Of a DNA stretch of 32,415 nt, positions 17,670 through 24,422 are shown piece by piece. The position numbers and the translations under genes are program-made. Source of the DNA: an uncultured Pelagibacteraceae bacterium (lineage in GTDB: Bacteria; Pseudomonadota; Alphaproteobacteria; Pelagibacterales; Pelagibacteraceae); NCBI GenBank assembly GCA_902600855.1, contig CACKKY010000008.1, forward strand, positions 1 to 32,415, given 5' to 3'. The notes under the pieces were generated by a model. That model had not been told where the DNA came from and ran no database searches. It was given only the letters and a program-made list of their open reading frames with translations. How positions within the stretch are numbered: the first letter of the stretch is position 1; each line of letters begins with the position of its first letter.

Positions 17670-19738
17670 TGGCTGACTTGTTTTTAGAATTATTCAGTGA
17701 AGAAATTCCTTCAGACCTTCAAAAGAATACTAGAGAAGATTTATTAAAAAGTTTCAATGACCTCTTCTTGGAAAAATCTATCTCATTTAAAAAAAGTTCA
17801 TCTTATTCAACTCCAAATAGATTGATTATTCTCTTTGAAGGAGTTCAAAAAAATTCTGTTATAAAAGCTGAGGAAATTAAGGGTCCAAATATCAATTCAC
17901 CAGTTCTAGCATTAGAAGGCTTTATGAAATCAAATAAAATTTTAAAAAAAGATCTTTATCAAAAAGATACTGATAAGGGTAAGTTTTATTTTTTTAAAAA
18001 AAAATCAAAAAAATTAAATACACACCATTTATTAGAAGAATTTACGCCAATATTGTTACATAAAATTAAGTGGAGAAAATCAATGCGTTGGGGAAATTTT
18101 GATTTAAATTGGGGCAGACCACTCAAGTCAATTTTAGCAATGTTTAATAAAAAAAAGCTTAATTTTAATTTTCATCACCTTAAATCCTCAAATTCGACTT
18201 TCATAGATAAAGAATTTGAGGATAAGAAAAAAATATTTATTGATTTTAGAGAATATAAAAAATTTTTTAAATCAAAAGGTATAATCATTGATCAAAATGA
18301 AAGAAAAAATTATATTGAGCAAACATTTGAAAAAATCTCAAAAAGTAGAAATATAAATATTGATTATAATCCCAAGTTACTTGACGAAGTTGTTGATCTT
18401 ACAGATCAACCAAATGTAATTATTTGTGAATTTAATAAAAAATTTTTAAATATTCCTAAAGAGATCTTAATTATTACAATGCAACATCATCAAAAATATT
18501 TTCCAACTTTTGATAAAAAAAGAGATATTACAAACGAATTTCTAGTAGTTGCTAACAAAAAAGATAAAAGAGGATTAATTAAATTAGGGAATGAAAGAGT
18601 AGTGGAAGCAAGATTAAGTGATGCAGAATTTTTTTGGAAAAAAGATAAATCTCAAAATATGGTAAAAAGAGTTACTAATCTAAAAACAATGAATTATTTT
18701 AAAGGACTAGGAACTTATTTTGATAAAGCTCAACGAATGAGAAAACTTGGTGGTATGATTTCTGATGAGCTATTAATTAGTAAAGAAAAAGTTGAATTAT
18801 CAGCATCAATTTGTAAAGTTGATTTGTTATCAGAAATTGTGGGTGAATTTCCAGAGCTGCAGGGTGTTATGGGAGGATATTTTGCAACGGCCCAAGGTTT
18901 TGATAAAGATCTAGCACTTGCAGTAAGTGAACAATATTTACCAACTGGGTCTAACTCGAGAGTTCCAAAAAAACCTTTTAGCATTGCACTTTCCATTGCA
19001 GATAAAATAGATACGTTAGTTGGTTTTTTTGGTTTAAATCAAAAACCAACTAGTTCAAAAGATCCATTTGCATTAAGAAGAATAGCATTAGGAATTATAA
19101 AAATTATAGTTGAAAATGAGAAAGATTTAAAAATAAGGGACTTAATAAATTATTCATCAAGCTTATATTTAGATCAAGGATTTAAATTTGAGAATAAATT
19201 TGTGCAAAAAGAATTATCCAACTTTTTAACGGAAAGATTAAAGTACTTCATGAGAGAAGAAAATATTAGAATTGATATTATTAAAGCTGCAATGAGCTCA
19301 TTTAATCTGGATCAATCAGTAGTAATTTTTAACAAGGCTAAAAGTTTAGATAAAATAATTAGCAAACAAGAGGGAATTGATATTATTTCAAGTTATAAGA
19401 GAGCCTCAAATATTTTAGATAATGAATTGAAGAATAATAAAATTGATTTATCAAATACAACTGATCCTGGTATTTTTAAATCTGAGCTTGAGAAAAATCT
19501 TTTTAAAAAGATAAATGAATTACTGAAATATTTCTCAAATTTAAATAAAGACGAAAATTATACTCAAACATTGGGCAACTTAGCCAGTGCGAAGAGAGAA
19601 ATATTTGATTTTTTTGATAATGTAATCGTTAACGAAAATGATCCCGTAATTAAAAAGAATAGACTAGAACTAATTCAAATGATGTGTAAAACATTTGATA
19701 ATTATATTAATTTTTCTTTAATTGACTCTCATCAATGA
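17669..19738 (+). CDS. glyS: Glycyl-tRNA synthetase beta subunit
   Basis: 689 aa; LFLELFSEEIPS start, MRWGNFDLNWGRPLKSILAMF, MQHHQKYFP, DAEFFWKKDKS, motifs. Directly downstream of glyQ. Confidence 0.96.
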   Translation: MADLFLELFSEEIPSDLQKNTREDLLKSFNDLFLEKSISFKKSSSYSTPNRLIILFEGVQKNSVIKAEEIKGPNINSPVLALEGFMKSNKILKKDLYQKDTDKGKFYFFKKKSKKLNTHHLLEEFTPILLHKIKWRKSMRWGNFDLNWGRPLKSILAMFNKKKLNFNFHHLKSSNSTFIDKEFEDKKKIFIDFREYKKFFKSKGIIIDQNERKNYIEQTFEKISKSRNINIDYNPKLLDEVVDLTDQPNVIICEFNKKFLNIPKEILIITMQHHQKYFPTFDKKRDITNEFLVVANKKDKRGLIKLGNERVVEARLSDAEFFWKKDKSQNMVKRVTNLKTMNYFKGLGTYFDKAQRMRKLGGMISDELLISKEKVELSASICKVDLLSEIVGEFPELQGVMGGYFATAQGFDKDLALAVSEQYLPTGSNSRVPKKPFSIALSIADKIDTLVGFFGLNQKPTSSKDPFALRRIALGIIKIIVENEKDLKIRDLINYSSSLYLDQGFKFENKFVQKELSNFLTERLKYFMREENIRIDIIKAAMSSFNLDQSVVIFNKAKSLDKIISKQEGIDIISSYKRASNILDNELKNNKIDLSNTTDPGIFKSELEKNLFKKINELLKYFSNLNKDENYTQTLGNLASAKREIFDFFDNVIVNENDPVIKKNRLELIQMMCKTFDNYINFSLIDSHQ

Positions 19739-22395
19739 AAAAAAATATTTTTAATTTTAAATCTAAAGATATTAAAAAAATTAAAAATCCAAAAAATTTT
19801 TTAGGTGGCAAAGGTACTAACCTTTCTGAAATGGGAAGAATGGGACTTCCAGTGCCACCAGGTTTTACGATATCCACAAACGTATGTGAACTTTTTTACA
19901 AAAATAAAAAAAAACTTGATAAAAAATTAATTGAGGAAATAAAAAAAGAATTAAAATTTATTGAAAAAGATGTATCAAAGAAATTTGGAGATTTAAAAGA
20001 TCCGTTGTTATTATCAATTAGATCAGGTGCCAGGGTATCCATGCCAGGGATGATGGATACGATTTTAAATTTAGGTCTAAATGATAAAACAGTAATAGCT
20101 TTAGCCACAAAAACTTCAAATGGAAGATTTGCCAAGGATAGTTATAGAAGATTTATACAAATGTATGGCAATGTTGTAATGGGAATTGAAGGTTATCATT
20201 TTGAGGAATTAATTGAAAATTATAAACTTACTAAAGGAGTTCTTTTGGATACGGATCTTGATGAGAAGGATTGGGATGGATTAATATTAGATTTTAAGAG
20301 AACAGTTAAAGAGCAAACAAAAAAAGATTTTCCACAGGATGTTTATCGACAATTAATAGATGCAATAAGTTCAGTTTTTTTGTCTTGGGAAAGCAATAGA
20401 GCAAAAATTTATAGAAAACTAAATCATATTCCTGTTGAGTGGGGAACAGCTGTTAATGTCCAATCAATGGTGTTTGGTAATATGGGTGAAGATTGTGCTA
20501 CTGGGGTAGTATTTACGAGAAATCCATCGAATGGTAAAAATGAAGTATATGGAGAATATCTAATTAACGCTCAAGGTGAAGATGTTGTTGCTGGAACAAG
20601 AACTCCTCAATATATAACTAAGAAGGCAAAGAAGGAGGCAAAGTCAAAAGAACTATCAATGGAAGAATCTATGCCTAAAGTTTTTGAGAAACTTAACAAA
20701 ATTTTAAAATCTTTAGAACATCATTATAAAGATATGCAAGATGTTGAGTTTACAGTTGAAAATAAAAAATTGTGGATTCTTCAAACCAGATCAGGAAAAA
20801 GAACTGCTAAATCTGCAGTAAAAATTGCTGTAGATATGGTTAAAGAAAAATTAATTTCAAAAAAAGATGCAGTCCTCAGAGTAGATCCAAGCTCTTTAGA
20901 CACTTTACTTCATCCTACTTTAGACGAAAAAAGTTCAATAAATGTAATTGCAAATGGGTTGCCGGCCTCTCCAGGCGCTGCTAGTGGAAAGGTAGTATTC
21001 ACATCAGAAGAAGCAGAAAGATTAACAGGAATGATGCAAGACACAATTTTAGTAAGAGTAGAGACATCTCCCGAAGATATTCAAGGAATGCATGCTGCTA
21101 AAGGTATTTTAACTGCAAGAGGAGGAATGACAAGTCATGCTGCAGTAGTTGCTAGAGGAATGGGAAGACCTTGTGTTTCTGGTTCTAGCGAGATTGATAT
21201 AAATTATGAAAATAAATCATTCAAAACCACTTCTATGGAAATAAAAGAGGGTGAGATCATTACAATAGATGGATCTACGGGAAGAATAATTTCTGGAAGG
21301 GTAGCCACCATTGAGCCTGAGATATCTGGTGATTTTTCAAAAATTATGTTCTGGGCAGATGAATTTAGAAAATTAAAAATTAGAACAAATTCAGAAACAA
21401 TCAAAGATACTAAAATAGCCAAAGATTTTGGAGCAGAAGGAATTGGCCTTTGTAGAACAGAGCATATGTTTTTTGATGAGGAAAGAATTCTGTTGGTGAG
21501 AGAAATGATTTTATCCAAAACAAAAGAGGATAGATTAATAGCTTTAGAGAAACTTTTACCTCATCAAAAAAAAGATTTTGAAGAAATTCTTAAAATCATG
21601 TCAGGATTACCAGTTACAATTAGATTATTGGATCCCCCATTACATGAATTTTTACCACATACAGAGAAAGAAGTTAATGAGGTTGCAAATGTAATAAATC
21701 AACCAATACAAGAAATAAATACAAGAATACAAGAGCTACATGAGCAAAATCCGATGCTAGGACATAGAGGCTGTAGACTTGGAATATCTTTCCCAGAAAT
21801 TTATGAAATGCAATGCAGAGCTATATTTGAAGCATTTGTTGAACTAAAGAATAAAAAATTTAAATCGGCATATCCAGAAATTATGATTCCTCTGGTTTCA
21901 ACAGAACAAGAAATAAAGATAATGAAAGATTTGGTTCTTAAAATTGCAGGTGAAATTCAAAAAAAATATAATACAAAAATTGAATTTATGGTTGGAACAA
22001 TGATTGAACTACCTAGAGCAGCAATTAAAGCAAAAGATATAGCAAAACATGCTGAATTTTTTAGTTTTGGCACAAATGATTTAACCCAAACAACCTTTGG
22101 TATTAGTAGAGATGATAGTGGAAAATTTTTAAATGATTATCTTGATAACAAGATTTTTTCAATAGATCCATTTGTCTCTATAGATGAGGGGGTTGGAGAT
22201 TTAATAAAAATTGCTGTTGAAAGAGGAAAAAAACAAAATAAAAGATTAAAGCTAGGAATTTGTGGTGAACATGGAGGAGATCCTAGGAGTATAGATTTTT
22301 GTGCTAAATCTGGATTGAATTATGTTTCTTGCTCACCTTACAGGGTACCTGTTGCAAGATTGGCTGCTGCTCAAGCAGAAATCAAAAAAGAATAA
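19735..22395 (+). CDS. ppdK: Pyruvate, phosphate dikinase
   Basis: 886 aa; GGKGTNLSEMGRMGLPVPPGFTIST, RSGARVSMPGMMDTILNLGLND, GGMTSHAAVVARGMGRPCVSG catalytic His region, GICGEHGGDPRSIDFC. Confidence 0.97.
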   Translation: MKKNIFNFKSKDIKKIKNPKNFLGGKGTNLSEMGRMGLPVPPGFTISTNVCELFYKNKKKLDKKLIEEIKKELKFIEKDVSKKFGDLKDPLLLSIRSGARVSMPGMMDTILNLGLNDKTVIALATKTSNGRFAKDSYRRFIQMYGNVVMGIEGYHFEELIENYKLTKGVLLDTDLDEKDWDGLILDFKRTVKEQTKKDFPQDVYRQLIDAISSVFLSWESNRAKIYRKLNHIPVEWGTAVNVQSMVFGNMGEDCATGVVFTRNPSNGKNEVYGEYLINAQGEDVVAGTRTPQYITKKAKKEAKSKELSMEESMPKVFEKLNKILKSLEHHYKDMQDVEFTVENKKLWILQTRSGKRTAKSAVKIAVDMVKEKLISKKDAVLRVDPSSLDTLLHPTLDEKSSINVIANGLPASPGAASGKVVFTSEEAERLTGMMQDTILVRVETSPEDIQGMHAAKGILTARGGMTSHAAVVARGMGRPCVSGSSEIDINYENKSFKTTSMEIKEGEIITIDGSTGRIISGRVATIEPEISGDFSKIMFWADEFRKLKIRTNSETIKDTKIAKDFGAEGIGLCRTEHMFFDEERILLVREMILSKTKEDRLIALEKLLPHQKKDFEEILKIMSGLPVTIRLLDPPLHEFLPHTEKEVNEVANVINQPIQEINTRIQELHEQNPMLGHRGCRLGISFPEIYEMQCRAIFEAFVELKNKKFKSAYPEIMIPLVSTEQEIKIMKDLVLKIAGEIQKKYNTKIEFMVGTMIELPRAAIKAKDIAKHAEFFSFGTNDLTQTTFGISRDDSGKFLNDYLDNKIFSIDPFVSIDEGVGDLIKIAVERGKKQNKRLKLGICGEHGGDPRSIDFCAKSGLNYVSCSPYRVPVARLAAAQAEIKKE

Positions 22396-22404
22396 ACAAA
22401 ATTT

Positions 22405-22668
22405 CTAAAGGGGCGTTCTGTTGCCAGGTGCCCCAGACCCCGTCTACTAAATTAACAAAGTTAATTAGGCAGCAAGTGCATAACTTTCGTTAGCATTTAT
22501 AAATTAGCCCGTTACGGTGGAACAATTCCGAACGAAAGAATAGCTTTTAGTCACTCGTCGATTCTAATTCACCCCCATTTAACTAAAATGGTGGAGGTGG
22601 TGGGTACTGCCCCCACGTCCGCAATGGTTATTACGAAATTCGTTTATCGTTATAGTTGGAAAACCAAC
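22405..22668 (-). ncRNA. ssrA: tmRNA, circularly permuted two-piece alphaproteobacterial type (boundaries approximate)
   Basis: Minus strand order is T-arm GTGGG-GGCAGTA-CCCAC (22616-22600), acceptor 3' strand CACCTCC (22599-22593), discriminator A and CCA (22592-22589), 12-nt spacer TTTTAGTTAAAT, acceptor 5' strand GGGGGTG (22576-22570, pairs fully with CACCTCC including one G-U), then tag ORF GCT AAC GAA AGT TAT GCA CTT GCT GCC TAA = ANESYALAA* (22494-22465), then GGGGC...GCCCC structure to about 22408. Confidence 0.93.
22465..22494 (-). other. tmRNA proteolysis-tag reading frame, ANESYALAA plus stop
   Basis: Reverse complement of 22465-22494 is GCTAACGAAAGTTATGCACTTGCTGCCTAA. The C-terminal YALAA matches the canonical SsrA degron end. 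Confidence 0.9.
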
Positions 22669-22673
22669 ACTTT

Positions 22674-22701
22674 ATTATAGAGTTAAATCGTGAAATATCA
22701 A
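22674..22701 (-). promoter_or_regulatory. Putative sigma70 promoter of the tmRNA gene
   Basis: Minus strand TTGATA (22701-22696), 16-nt spacer, TATAAT (22679-22674). Predicted start at about 22667, at the beginning of the GTTGGTTTTCCAAC hairpin (22668-22655). Confidence 0.7.
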
Positions 22702-22844
22702 AATTTAAATTATTTCACTTTTAGGAAAATAATTTACTTAAAACTTTTATATAATCTAATATAAACGTAATAATTTATTAAATACTTCAAAAAATTCTTG
22801 TAAAATTTATAAAAAAAATTACTAGCATAGTAAGTTCAACATTT

Positions 22845-24422
22845 ATGACGTTACAAAAATTAATAATATTACTGCTTTTATCACTTATAACTCTATTTTC
22901 TTTCTTTCTTAATTATTATTATGGTTTTCTGGGAGTAAATCCTTTAGACAATTTTACAAATTTCAATTCAGGATTCAGTTTTTTGAAGGGCAAATATCCA
23001 TTTAAAGATTTTTGGACTGCAACCGGTCCATCATTGGGAATATTTCAAAGTTTTTTTTTTAAGATATTAGGCTTTAGTTGGAAATCATATGTCATTCATG
23101 CATCAATTTTTAATTCTATTATAGCAATTTCTTTATTTCTTTTTTTATTAAAAATAGGTTTAAATAAATACATATCTTTTTTATATTCAATCTTATTCTC
23201 AGTTATTTTCTACCCGCCAGTAGGAACTCCTTTTGTCGATCATCATTCTATGTTTTTTACCTATCTAACTTTTTTTATAATAGTGTATTCACTTAATGAA
23301 AATAAGCCAAATTTATTTGCATTTATTCCAATTTTTTTTCTGCTAGGATTGTTTTCAAAACAAACCCCAATAGGTTACTTTTTTATACTAATTTCTCCTG
23401 TAGTAATTTATAAATTAACAAATATAAAAATTTTTTATTCTCTCTTAATTGGTTTATTAATTTCAATACTTTTATTTTATTTTTATATAAATTTTACTAA
23501 CATAAAATTAATAGATATTTATTATCAATATTTTTTATCTACATCTGAAGTTGGTTCTTACAGATTAAATAATAGTTCATTTTCTTTTTATGACGTATTC
23601 CATAGATATAGATTTATACATTTATCACTTATTTTATTTATTGTTTTAGCAATTAAGTATGAAAATTTTAATCAAATTTTTAAAATATCTAAATTTCAAT
23701 TAATATATCTAGTTTTATCAATTAATTTCACAATGATTTTTCATCAACTTTTATCTATGAATCAAGCATTCATTCTTTCATTAATTTTCTTAAATCTTGG
23801 TTTAAGTTTAAGATTAATTAATTTTGATAGAAAAAGAATTTTAAATAACAAATTTCTTATTTTTCTTATACTTTTTTCTCTATACATTTGTTTTAAATAT
23901 CACTTCAAATTTAATGAAACTAGAAGATTTAATGATTTAGCATATTCTAATAAATTACAAAATATTGATTCAGGTAAGTATTTTCCTTCATTAAAAAATT
24001 TAAATTGGTTTACTAATTATAATAATGACCCAAAAAAAGAAATTGAGAATTTAAAACAAGCCTATGACGCATTAAAAAAAGAAAAAAAAAAATATGCTTT
24101 AATAACAGATTATCAATTCTTATCTTTAGAATTAGGAATTTACGGAAATTTTCCATTAAAATGGTTTCATGAAAATGTTTCTTTTCCAAATATGAAGTCT
24201 GAAGACAATAAAAAGGCCCAACTAGCTTTTTCTAATTTTTTTATAAAAAAATTAAAAGTCAACCAAATAGAGGAAATTTATTTTGTTCCACCTGAAAAAT
24301 ATAGAGAGGATTTTATAGTAAATATTATTAACAAACATTGTGTCATTAAACCAAAACATATAAACCAAGATTCATCTAACGAATCTAAATTTTACGAAAA
24401 AATAAGCATAAAGTGCTTGTAG
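22845..24422 (+). CDS. Polytopic membrane protein, possibly a GT-C-fold glycosyltransferase-like protein
   Basis: 525 aa with many hydrophobic segments. An early luminal loop (NPLDNFTNFNSGFSFLKGKYPFKDFWTATGPSLGIFQSFFFKILG) resembles the first loop of GT-C/ArnT-like proteins. The C-terminus is soluble. The function call is weak. Confidence 0.5.
   Translation: MTLQKLIILLLLSLITLFSFFLNYYYGFLGVNPLDNFTNFNSGFSFLKGKYPFKDFWTATGPSLGIFQSFFFKILGFSWKSYVIHASIFNSIIAISLFLFLLKIGLNKYISFLYSILFSVIFYPPVGTPFVDHHSMFFTYLTFFIIVYSLNENKPNLFAFIPIFFLLGLFSKQTPIGYFFILISPVVIYKLTNIKIFYSLLIGLLISILLFYFYINFTNIKLIDIYYQYFLSTSEVGSYRLNNSSFSFYDVFHRYRFIHLSLILFIVLAIKYENFNQIFKISKFQLIYLVLSINFTMIFHQLLSMNQAFILSLIFLNLGLSLRLINFDRKRILNNKFLIFLILFSLYICFKYHFKFNETRRFNDLAYSNKLQNIDSGKYFPSLKNLNWFTNYNNDPKKEIENLKQAYDALKKEKKKYALITDYQFLSLELGIYGNFPLKWFHENVSFPNMKSEDNKKAQLAFSNFFIKKLKVNQIEEIYFVPPEKYREDFIVNIINKHCVIKPKHINQDSSNESKFYEKISIKCL

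Follow-up and report, generated by a model that had tools for sequence, protein, structure and literature searches.

A split, permuted tmRNA was described in Candidatus Pelagibacter ubique in 2009, with the region between its two pieces quoted as 75-125 bp (PMC2704228). In Orientia, the processing of the tmRNA into two pieces, of about 80 nt and 240 nt, has been followed by Northern blot and RNA-seq (PMC7335160), and 11,946 unique permuted tmRNA genes have been counted (PMC11915505). We analysed a stretch of 32,415 nt from an uncultured bacterium of the Pelagibacteraceae (SAR11), hereafter the window. The gap of 449 nt at positions 22396-22844 contains a complete and unannotated tmRNA gene on the minus strand, as a preliminary description of this DNA had proposed. 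The gene gives a full-length match to the Rfam model alpha_tmRNA, RF01849 (22407-22706, minus strand, model positions 1-355, 222.6 bits, E=1.9e-63; gathering threshold 50 bits), the pan-permuted model RF04321 matches 22465-22651 (127 bits), and ARAGORN reports a permuted tmRNA with the tag ANESYALAA* in the gap. Hence, the two checks advised in the preliminary description, with Rfam and with ARAGORN, were both positive and agree. ARAGORN places the 3' end at 22374, inside the adjacent PPDK gene, whose stop is at 22395; this end is not credible, and we place that of the tmRNA at about 22407-22410. The elements of the locus, placed by Rfam, ARAGORN and coordinates, are the following:

19735-22395: pyruvate phosphate dikinase gene (ppdK; Pfam PPDK_N and PEP-utilizers)
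22410-22434, minus strand: 3' end hairpin GGGGCACCTGGCAACAGAACGCCCC, GGGGC...GCCCC
22407-22576, minus strand: coding piece
22447-22468, minus strand: post-tag hairpin
22465-22494, minus strand: proteolysis tag, GCT AAC GAA AGT TAT GCA CTT GCT GCC TAA, translated directly as ANESYALAA*
22570-22576, minus strand: acceptor 5' strand GGGGGTG (RNA GGGGGUG)
22577-22588, minus strand: intervening spacer TTTTAGTTAAAT (RNA UUUUAGUUAAAU), 12 nt, read directly and expected to be removed on maturation
22589-22592, minus strand: discriminator A and encoded CCA
22593-22599, minus strand: acceptor 3' strand CACCTCC (RNA CACCUCC)
22600-22616, minus strand: T-arm, loop GGCAGTA (RNA GGCAGUA)
22589-22668, minus strand: acceptor piece (tRNA-like 3' half)
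22655-22668, minus strand: hairpin GUUGGUUUUCCAAC at the 5' end of the acceptor piece, paired in Rfam alpha_tmRNA
22674-22701, minus strand: probable tmRNA promoter, TTGATA (-35), 16 nt, TATAAT (-10), sigma-70-like with 11/12 consensus matches
22845-24422, plus strand: ORF of 525 aa with multiple transmembrane segments, between the tmRNA and the divergent thyX, no Pfam match

The circular permutation can be read directly: the acceptor piece lies 5' of the coding piece, the CCA is encoded, and 12 nt separate the two pieces. The permuted alphaproteobacterial identity was thus correctly recognised at the outset, and the tag, T-loop, spacer and CCA reported then were all correct on re-reading. The acceptor strands GGGGGTG and CACCTCC, followed by ACCA, carry alanine identity. 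The pair G3-U70, the identity pair for alanine, is present in 279/279 genes compared, a set that is nearly all alphaproteobacterial and in which duplicates are counted. In this set, the sixth pair of the acceptor stem, whose strands are on separate pieces, covaries (T-A in 229 genes, C-G in 44), and pairs 1-2 of the T-stem change among G-C/C-G and T-A/C-G/A-T; acceptor pairs 1-4 are uninformative in this respect, their 5' side being fixed by the search pattern. The 5' terminal hairpin is also kept by compensating changes, e.g., GTTACTTAGGTAAC in one relative. In the window, the tag frame ends in a hydrophobic C terminus and a stop.

The setting in the genome was also analysed. The gene in the window is the only match to alpha_tmRNA above the threshold in this assembly, which is 57% complete, and SmpB is encoded in the same genome (G000 C9:27730-28155, E=3e-56). 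A second match (C23, 22.5 bits) is under the cut-off and is neither a tRNA nor a tmRNA for ARAGORN; we treated it as a chance match. Across the order, 176 of the 197 genomes have a match above the cut-off, and most of those without one come from incomplete or fragmented assemblies, in which the gene may lie in a gap. We conclude, with a probability of about 0.97, that the tmRNA gene in the window is the functional ssrA of this SAR11 bacterium, in the permuted form of alphaproteobacteria, and that by analogy with the family it would give a two-piece tmRNA charged with alanine. The gene had been missed by annotation and is of a known kind, since the split permuted form is normal for alphaproteobacteria; as an annotation it adds one missing housekeeping RNA gene and nothing beyond.

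The best surviving alternative, albeit a very improbable one, is that the window contains a decayed or displaced copy and that the functional tmRNA lies in the 43% of the genome that the assembly lacks. The incompleteness of the assembly, the non-ancestral upstream context and spacer of the gene, and the fact that partial copies do arise here (in locus L284 a decayed ancestral 5' half stands beside thyX) would be compatible with such a pseudogene. Against it, the stems, G3-U70, the CCA, the tag frame and the stop are all intact, and the score is similar to those of the matches in complete relatives, most of which have a single match listed.

The preliminary description had extended the gene to 22701. 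The stretch from 22701 to 22674 reads as a sigma-70-like promoter, so that, judging from promoter spacing, the probable transcript start is near 22668, at the hairpin GUUGGUUUUCCAAC, and not at 22701. This promoter match is weak when taken alone, because 2.8 such sites are expected by chance in the region; in most relatives, the same position is occupied by TTGAATC...TATATT. By analogy with the family, this promoter would drive a single precursor RNA, in which the 3' and 5' strands of the acceptor would form a stem resembling that of tRNA-Ala, whose loop holds the CCA and the 12-nt spacer. Cleavage by RNase P would be expected before G22576, and trimming of the 3' side would be expected to expose the CCA, so that the gene should yield a two-piece product. 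The two-piece tmRNA, having G3-U70, would be charged with alanine, bind SmpB, enter stalled ribosomes and append ANESYALAA. Both the promoter and the spacer of the window differ in sequence from those of nearly all relatives, and expression could therefore differ as well.

To our knowledge, every permuted tmRNA precursor needs the removal of a spacer looped between the strands of the acceptor stem. A single stem-pairing rule was applied to measure the spacer in 70 genes from the order and in 66 from across the class. The spacer spans 6-17 nt in the former and 5 to 232 nt in the latter, where 14/66 have at most 14 nt; other alphaproteobacterial genomes include, besides longer spacers, some of 5, 6, 7, 9 and 10 nt. 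A further, larger set comprised 178 unique Pelagibacteraceae-type genes, among them genes from named Pelagibacteraceae single-cell genomes located by pattern search; part of the set was selected with a pattern in which the T-arm is fixed and the spacer may have 3-33 nt. Within that range, the spacer is of 12 nt in 127 genes and of 11 nt in 41, the remainder having 4-17 nt, so that 12 nt is the modal length. These counts are not fitted by the 75-125 bp of PMC2704228, and they show that spacers of 5-17 nt are common among alphaproteobacterial permuted tmRNAs. The T-loop GGC[AG]GTA is found in 70/70 genes of the order and in 59/66 of the class, and the loop of the window is the Rfam consensus; this statement is drawn from these two samples because the pattern behind the 178 genes fixes the T-arm, and the T-loop count there is not independent. 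Tags of 9 residues are usual in the SAR11 order, and ANESYALAA is the commonest one (112/178 Pelagibacteraceae-type genes).

The preliminary description had singled out the 12-nt spacer, the T-loop without the usual TTC and the 9-codon tag as oddities, and had called for a comparison of spacer lengths across SAR11 and alphaproteobacteria; once made, this comparison removes the novelty and leaves the annotation standing. The weakest alternative, an unusual processing variant peculiar to this gene, could appeal to a spacer below the 20-50 nt typical of the other alphaproteobacteria sampled and below the published length, and is already refuted by the rule of 6-17 nt across the order, the 5-10 nt of unrelated alphaproteobacteria and a T-loop that is the class consensus.

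In SAR11, the spacer is conserved in sequence and not in length alone, an unexplained constraint on a segment that should not persist in the mature RNA. The commonest spacer in Pelagibacteraceae-type genes is TTTACAACTTAT, and a core, CAACTTA, occurs in 148/168 SAR11 genes that were not selected for the motif. Weighted column conservation is 0.76 in the spacer versus roughly 0.4-0.5 in the downstream flank. In 54 genes thinned to downstream flanks less than 75% alike, the core positions have a mean pairwise identity of 0.99 and the spacer as a whole 0.90, against 0.62 in the stretch preceding the -10 box and 0.35 in the downstream flank; the size of this contrast is overstated, because all 54 genes were chosen as already carrying both motif and native promoter and because the flank itself served for the thinning. 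The spacer of the window is unique in sequence among the 178 genes.

The presence of the core is associated with the position of thyX. All 100 genes with a divergent thyX directly adjoining the tmRNA have the core (100/100), which is absent from 10 of the 15 genes with thyX farther off behind other genes, the window being among the 10 (Fisher p=4e-11, uncorrected for kinship and only descriptive because the association was noticed in the same data). The window therefore belongs to the separated, core-less class: its spacer is atypical in sequence, not in length. A quick thyX tree places 13 separate separations and 9 separate core losses, with every loss in a separated lineage. A phylogenetically corrected sign test has about 5 pairs on well-supported branches, too small a number for significance; the pairs that differ all point in the same direction. 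The native -35, TTGAATC, is present in 134/148 core-bearing genes, and the genes that have lost the core are also without it. In the other SAR11 family sampled, thyX is adjacent in 26/26 genes, which have no CAACTTA core; this is therefore evidence against a general role of the core for thyX.

A tentative reading of these data, which we regard as possible and somewhat doubtful, is that the core is under selection for a function needing the tmRNA next to a divergent thyX and the native GAATC-bearing promoter, e.g., as a shared cis-regulatory element or as part of thyX expression, and that it decays once a gene intervenes, as in the window. Alternatively, the insertion might carry a 5' half of the tmRNA gene with it, including the spacer.

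Several other observations concern the same region. GANTC is the kind of site methylated by CcrM in alphaproteobacteria. One such site, GAATC, is contained in the TTGAATC of the 134/148 core-bearing genes and is absent in the window. At L284, positions -1470 to -1320 from the T-arm of its tmRNA hold what is left of an ancestral tmRNA 5' half, now decayed, with its promoter and its CAACTTAT spacer (core included), beside thyX; the intact tmRNA lies 1.3 kb from it. We discarded a pairing of the core with another part of the precursor: among the folds of five precursors, the spacer stays unpaired, as a hairpin loop, in those of the four relatives, and the predicted fold of the window is partly rearranged at the spacer. 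No compensating column for the core was found inside the gene, and the columns with the strongest association to the core lie upstream of the gene. An antisense thyX promoter in the spacer was also discarded, as reading by hand gave no convincing -35/-10 pair.

The usual SAR11 arrangement, in which thyX adjoins the tmRNA, is found in 100 relatives. The 525-aa ORF of the window, which has no tblastn homologue in the other loci compared, is a lineage-specific insertion relative to this arrangement. Other relatives have different genes between the tmRNA and thyX, by eye aminotransferase-like, TPP-enzyme-like, radical-SAM-like and multi-transmembrane ones. The variety of these genes suggests that the interval between the tmRNA and thyX is an insertion hot spot for surface-related genes.

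The other end of the gene is repeated in many relatives. Downstream of the gene, the 21-nt core of the tmRNA 3' hairpin occurs again, one to four times and as direct repeats, in 32 of the loci examined; it is single copy in the window. About 50 of the 151 genomes of the genus have two or more 3'-end copies (counted from a table), and a reversed control pattern gave none. Some copies lie at a distance from the tmRNA, and these are often flanked by convergent genes. The small ORFs between repeats, read by eye, include HNH-like nucleases and short exported proteins, and no integrase was recognised among them inside the cassettes; complete genomes have mostly one tyrosine recombinase. The 3'-end element may serve as an attachment site or as a mobile terminator, or combine the two roles. 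Our literature search found no paper on SAR11 cassette arrays at the tmRNA, and the repeats of the ssrA 3' end around cassettes could indicate a site of cassette gain in one of the ocean's most abundant bacterial groups. Individual examples of the 3' end (GGCACCTGGCAACAGAACGCC) repeated downstream of ssrA are L246, L280, L287, L290, L295 and L296; copies elsewhere than at ssrA are seen in L309-L316, at convergent gene ends.

Overall, the locus resembles the described systems closely. It shares with the two-piece tmRNAs of Caulobacter (Keiler et al. 2000, to the extent cited in PMC2704228) and of Orientia (PMC7335160) a permuted gene and the expectation of an acceptor piece of about 80 nt and a coding piece; in contrast to them, its tag and spacer are short for the class, and it is described here at the level of the sequence. 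Like RF01849, it has the full length of the model, the permuted order, the T-loop GGCRGUA, an encoded CCA, a tag ORF and a 3' hairpin, and it departs from the model consensus by a shorter spacer and a tag of 9 residues, both usual in SAR11. The tmRNA of Ca. Pelagibacter ubique HTCC1062 (PMC2704228) is likewise split and permuted, and has a divergent thyX on the same side; in contrast with HTCC1062, the window has the 525-aa ORF between the tmRNA and thyX, and an upstream promoter and a spacer whose sequences are unlike the usual ones of the family.
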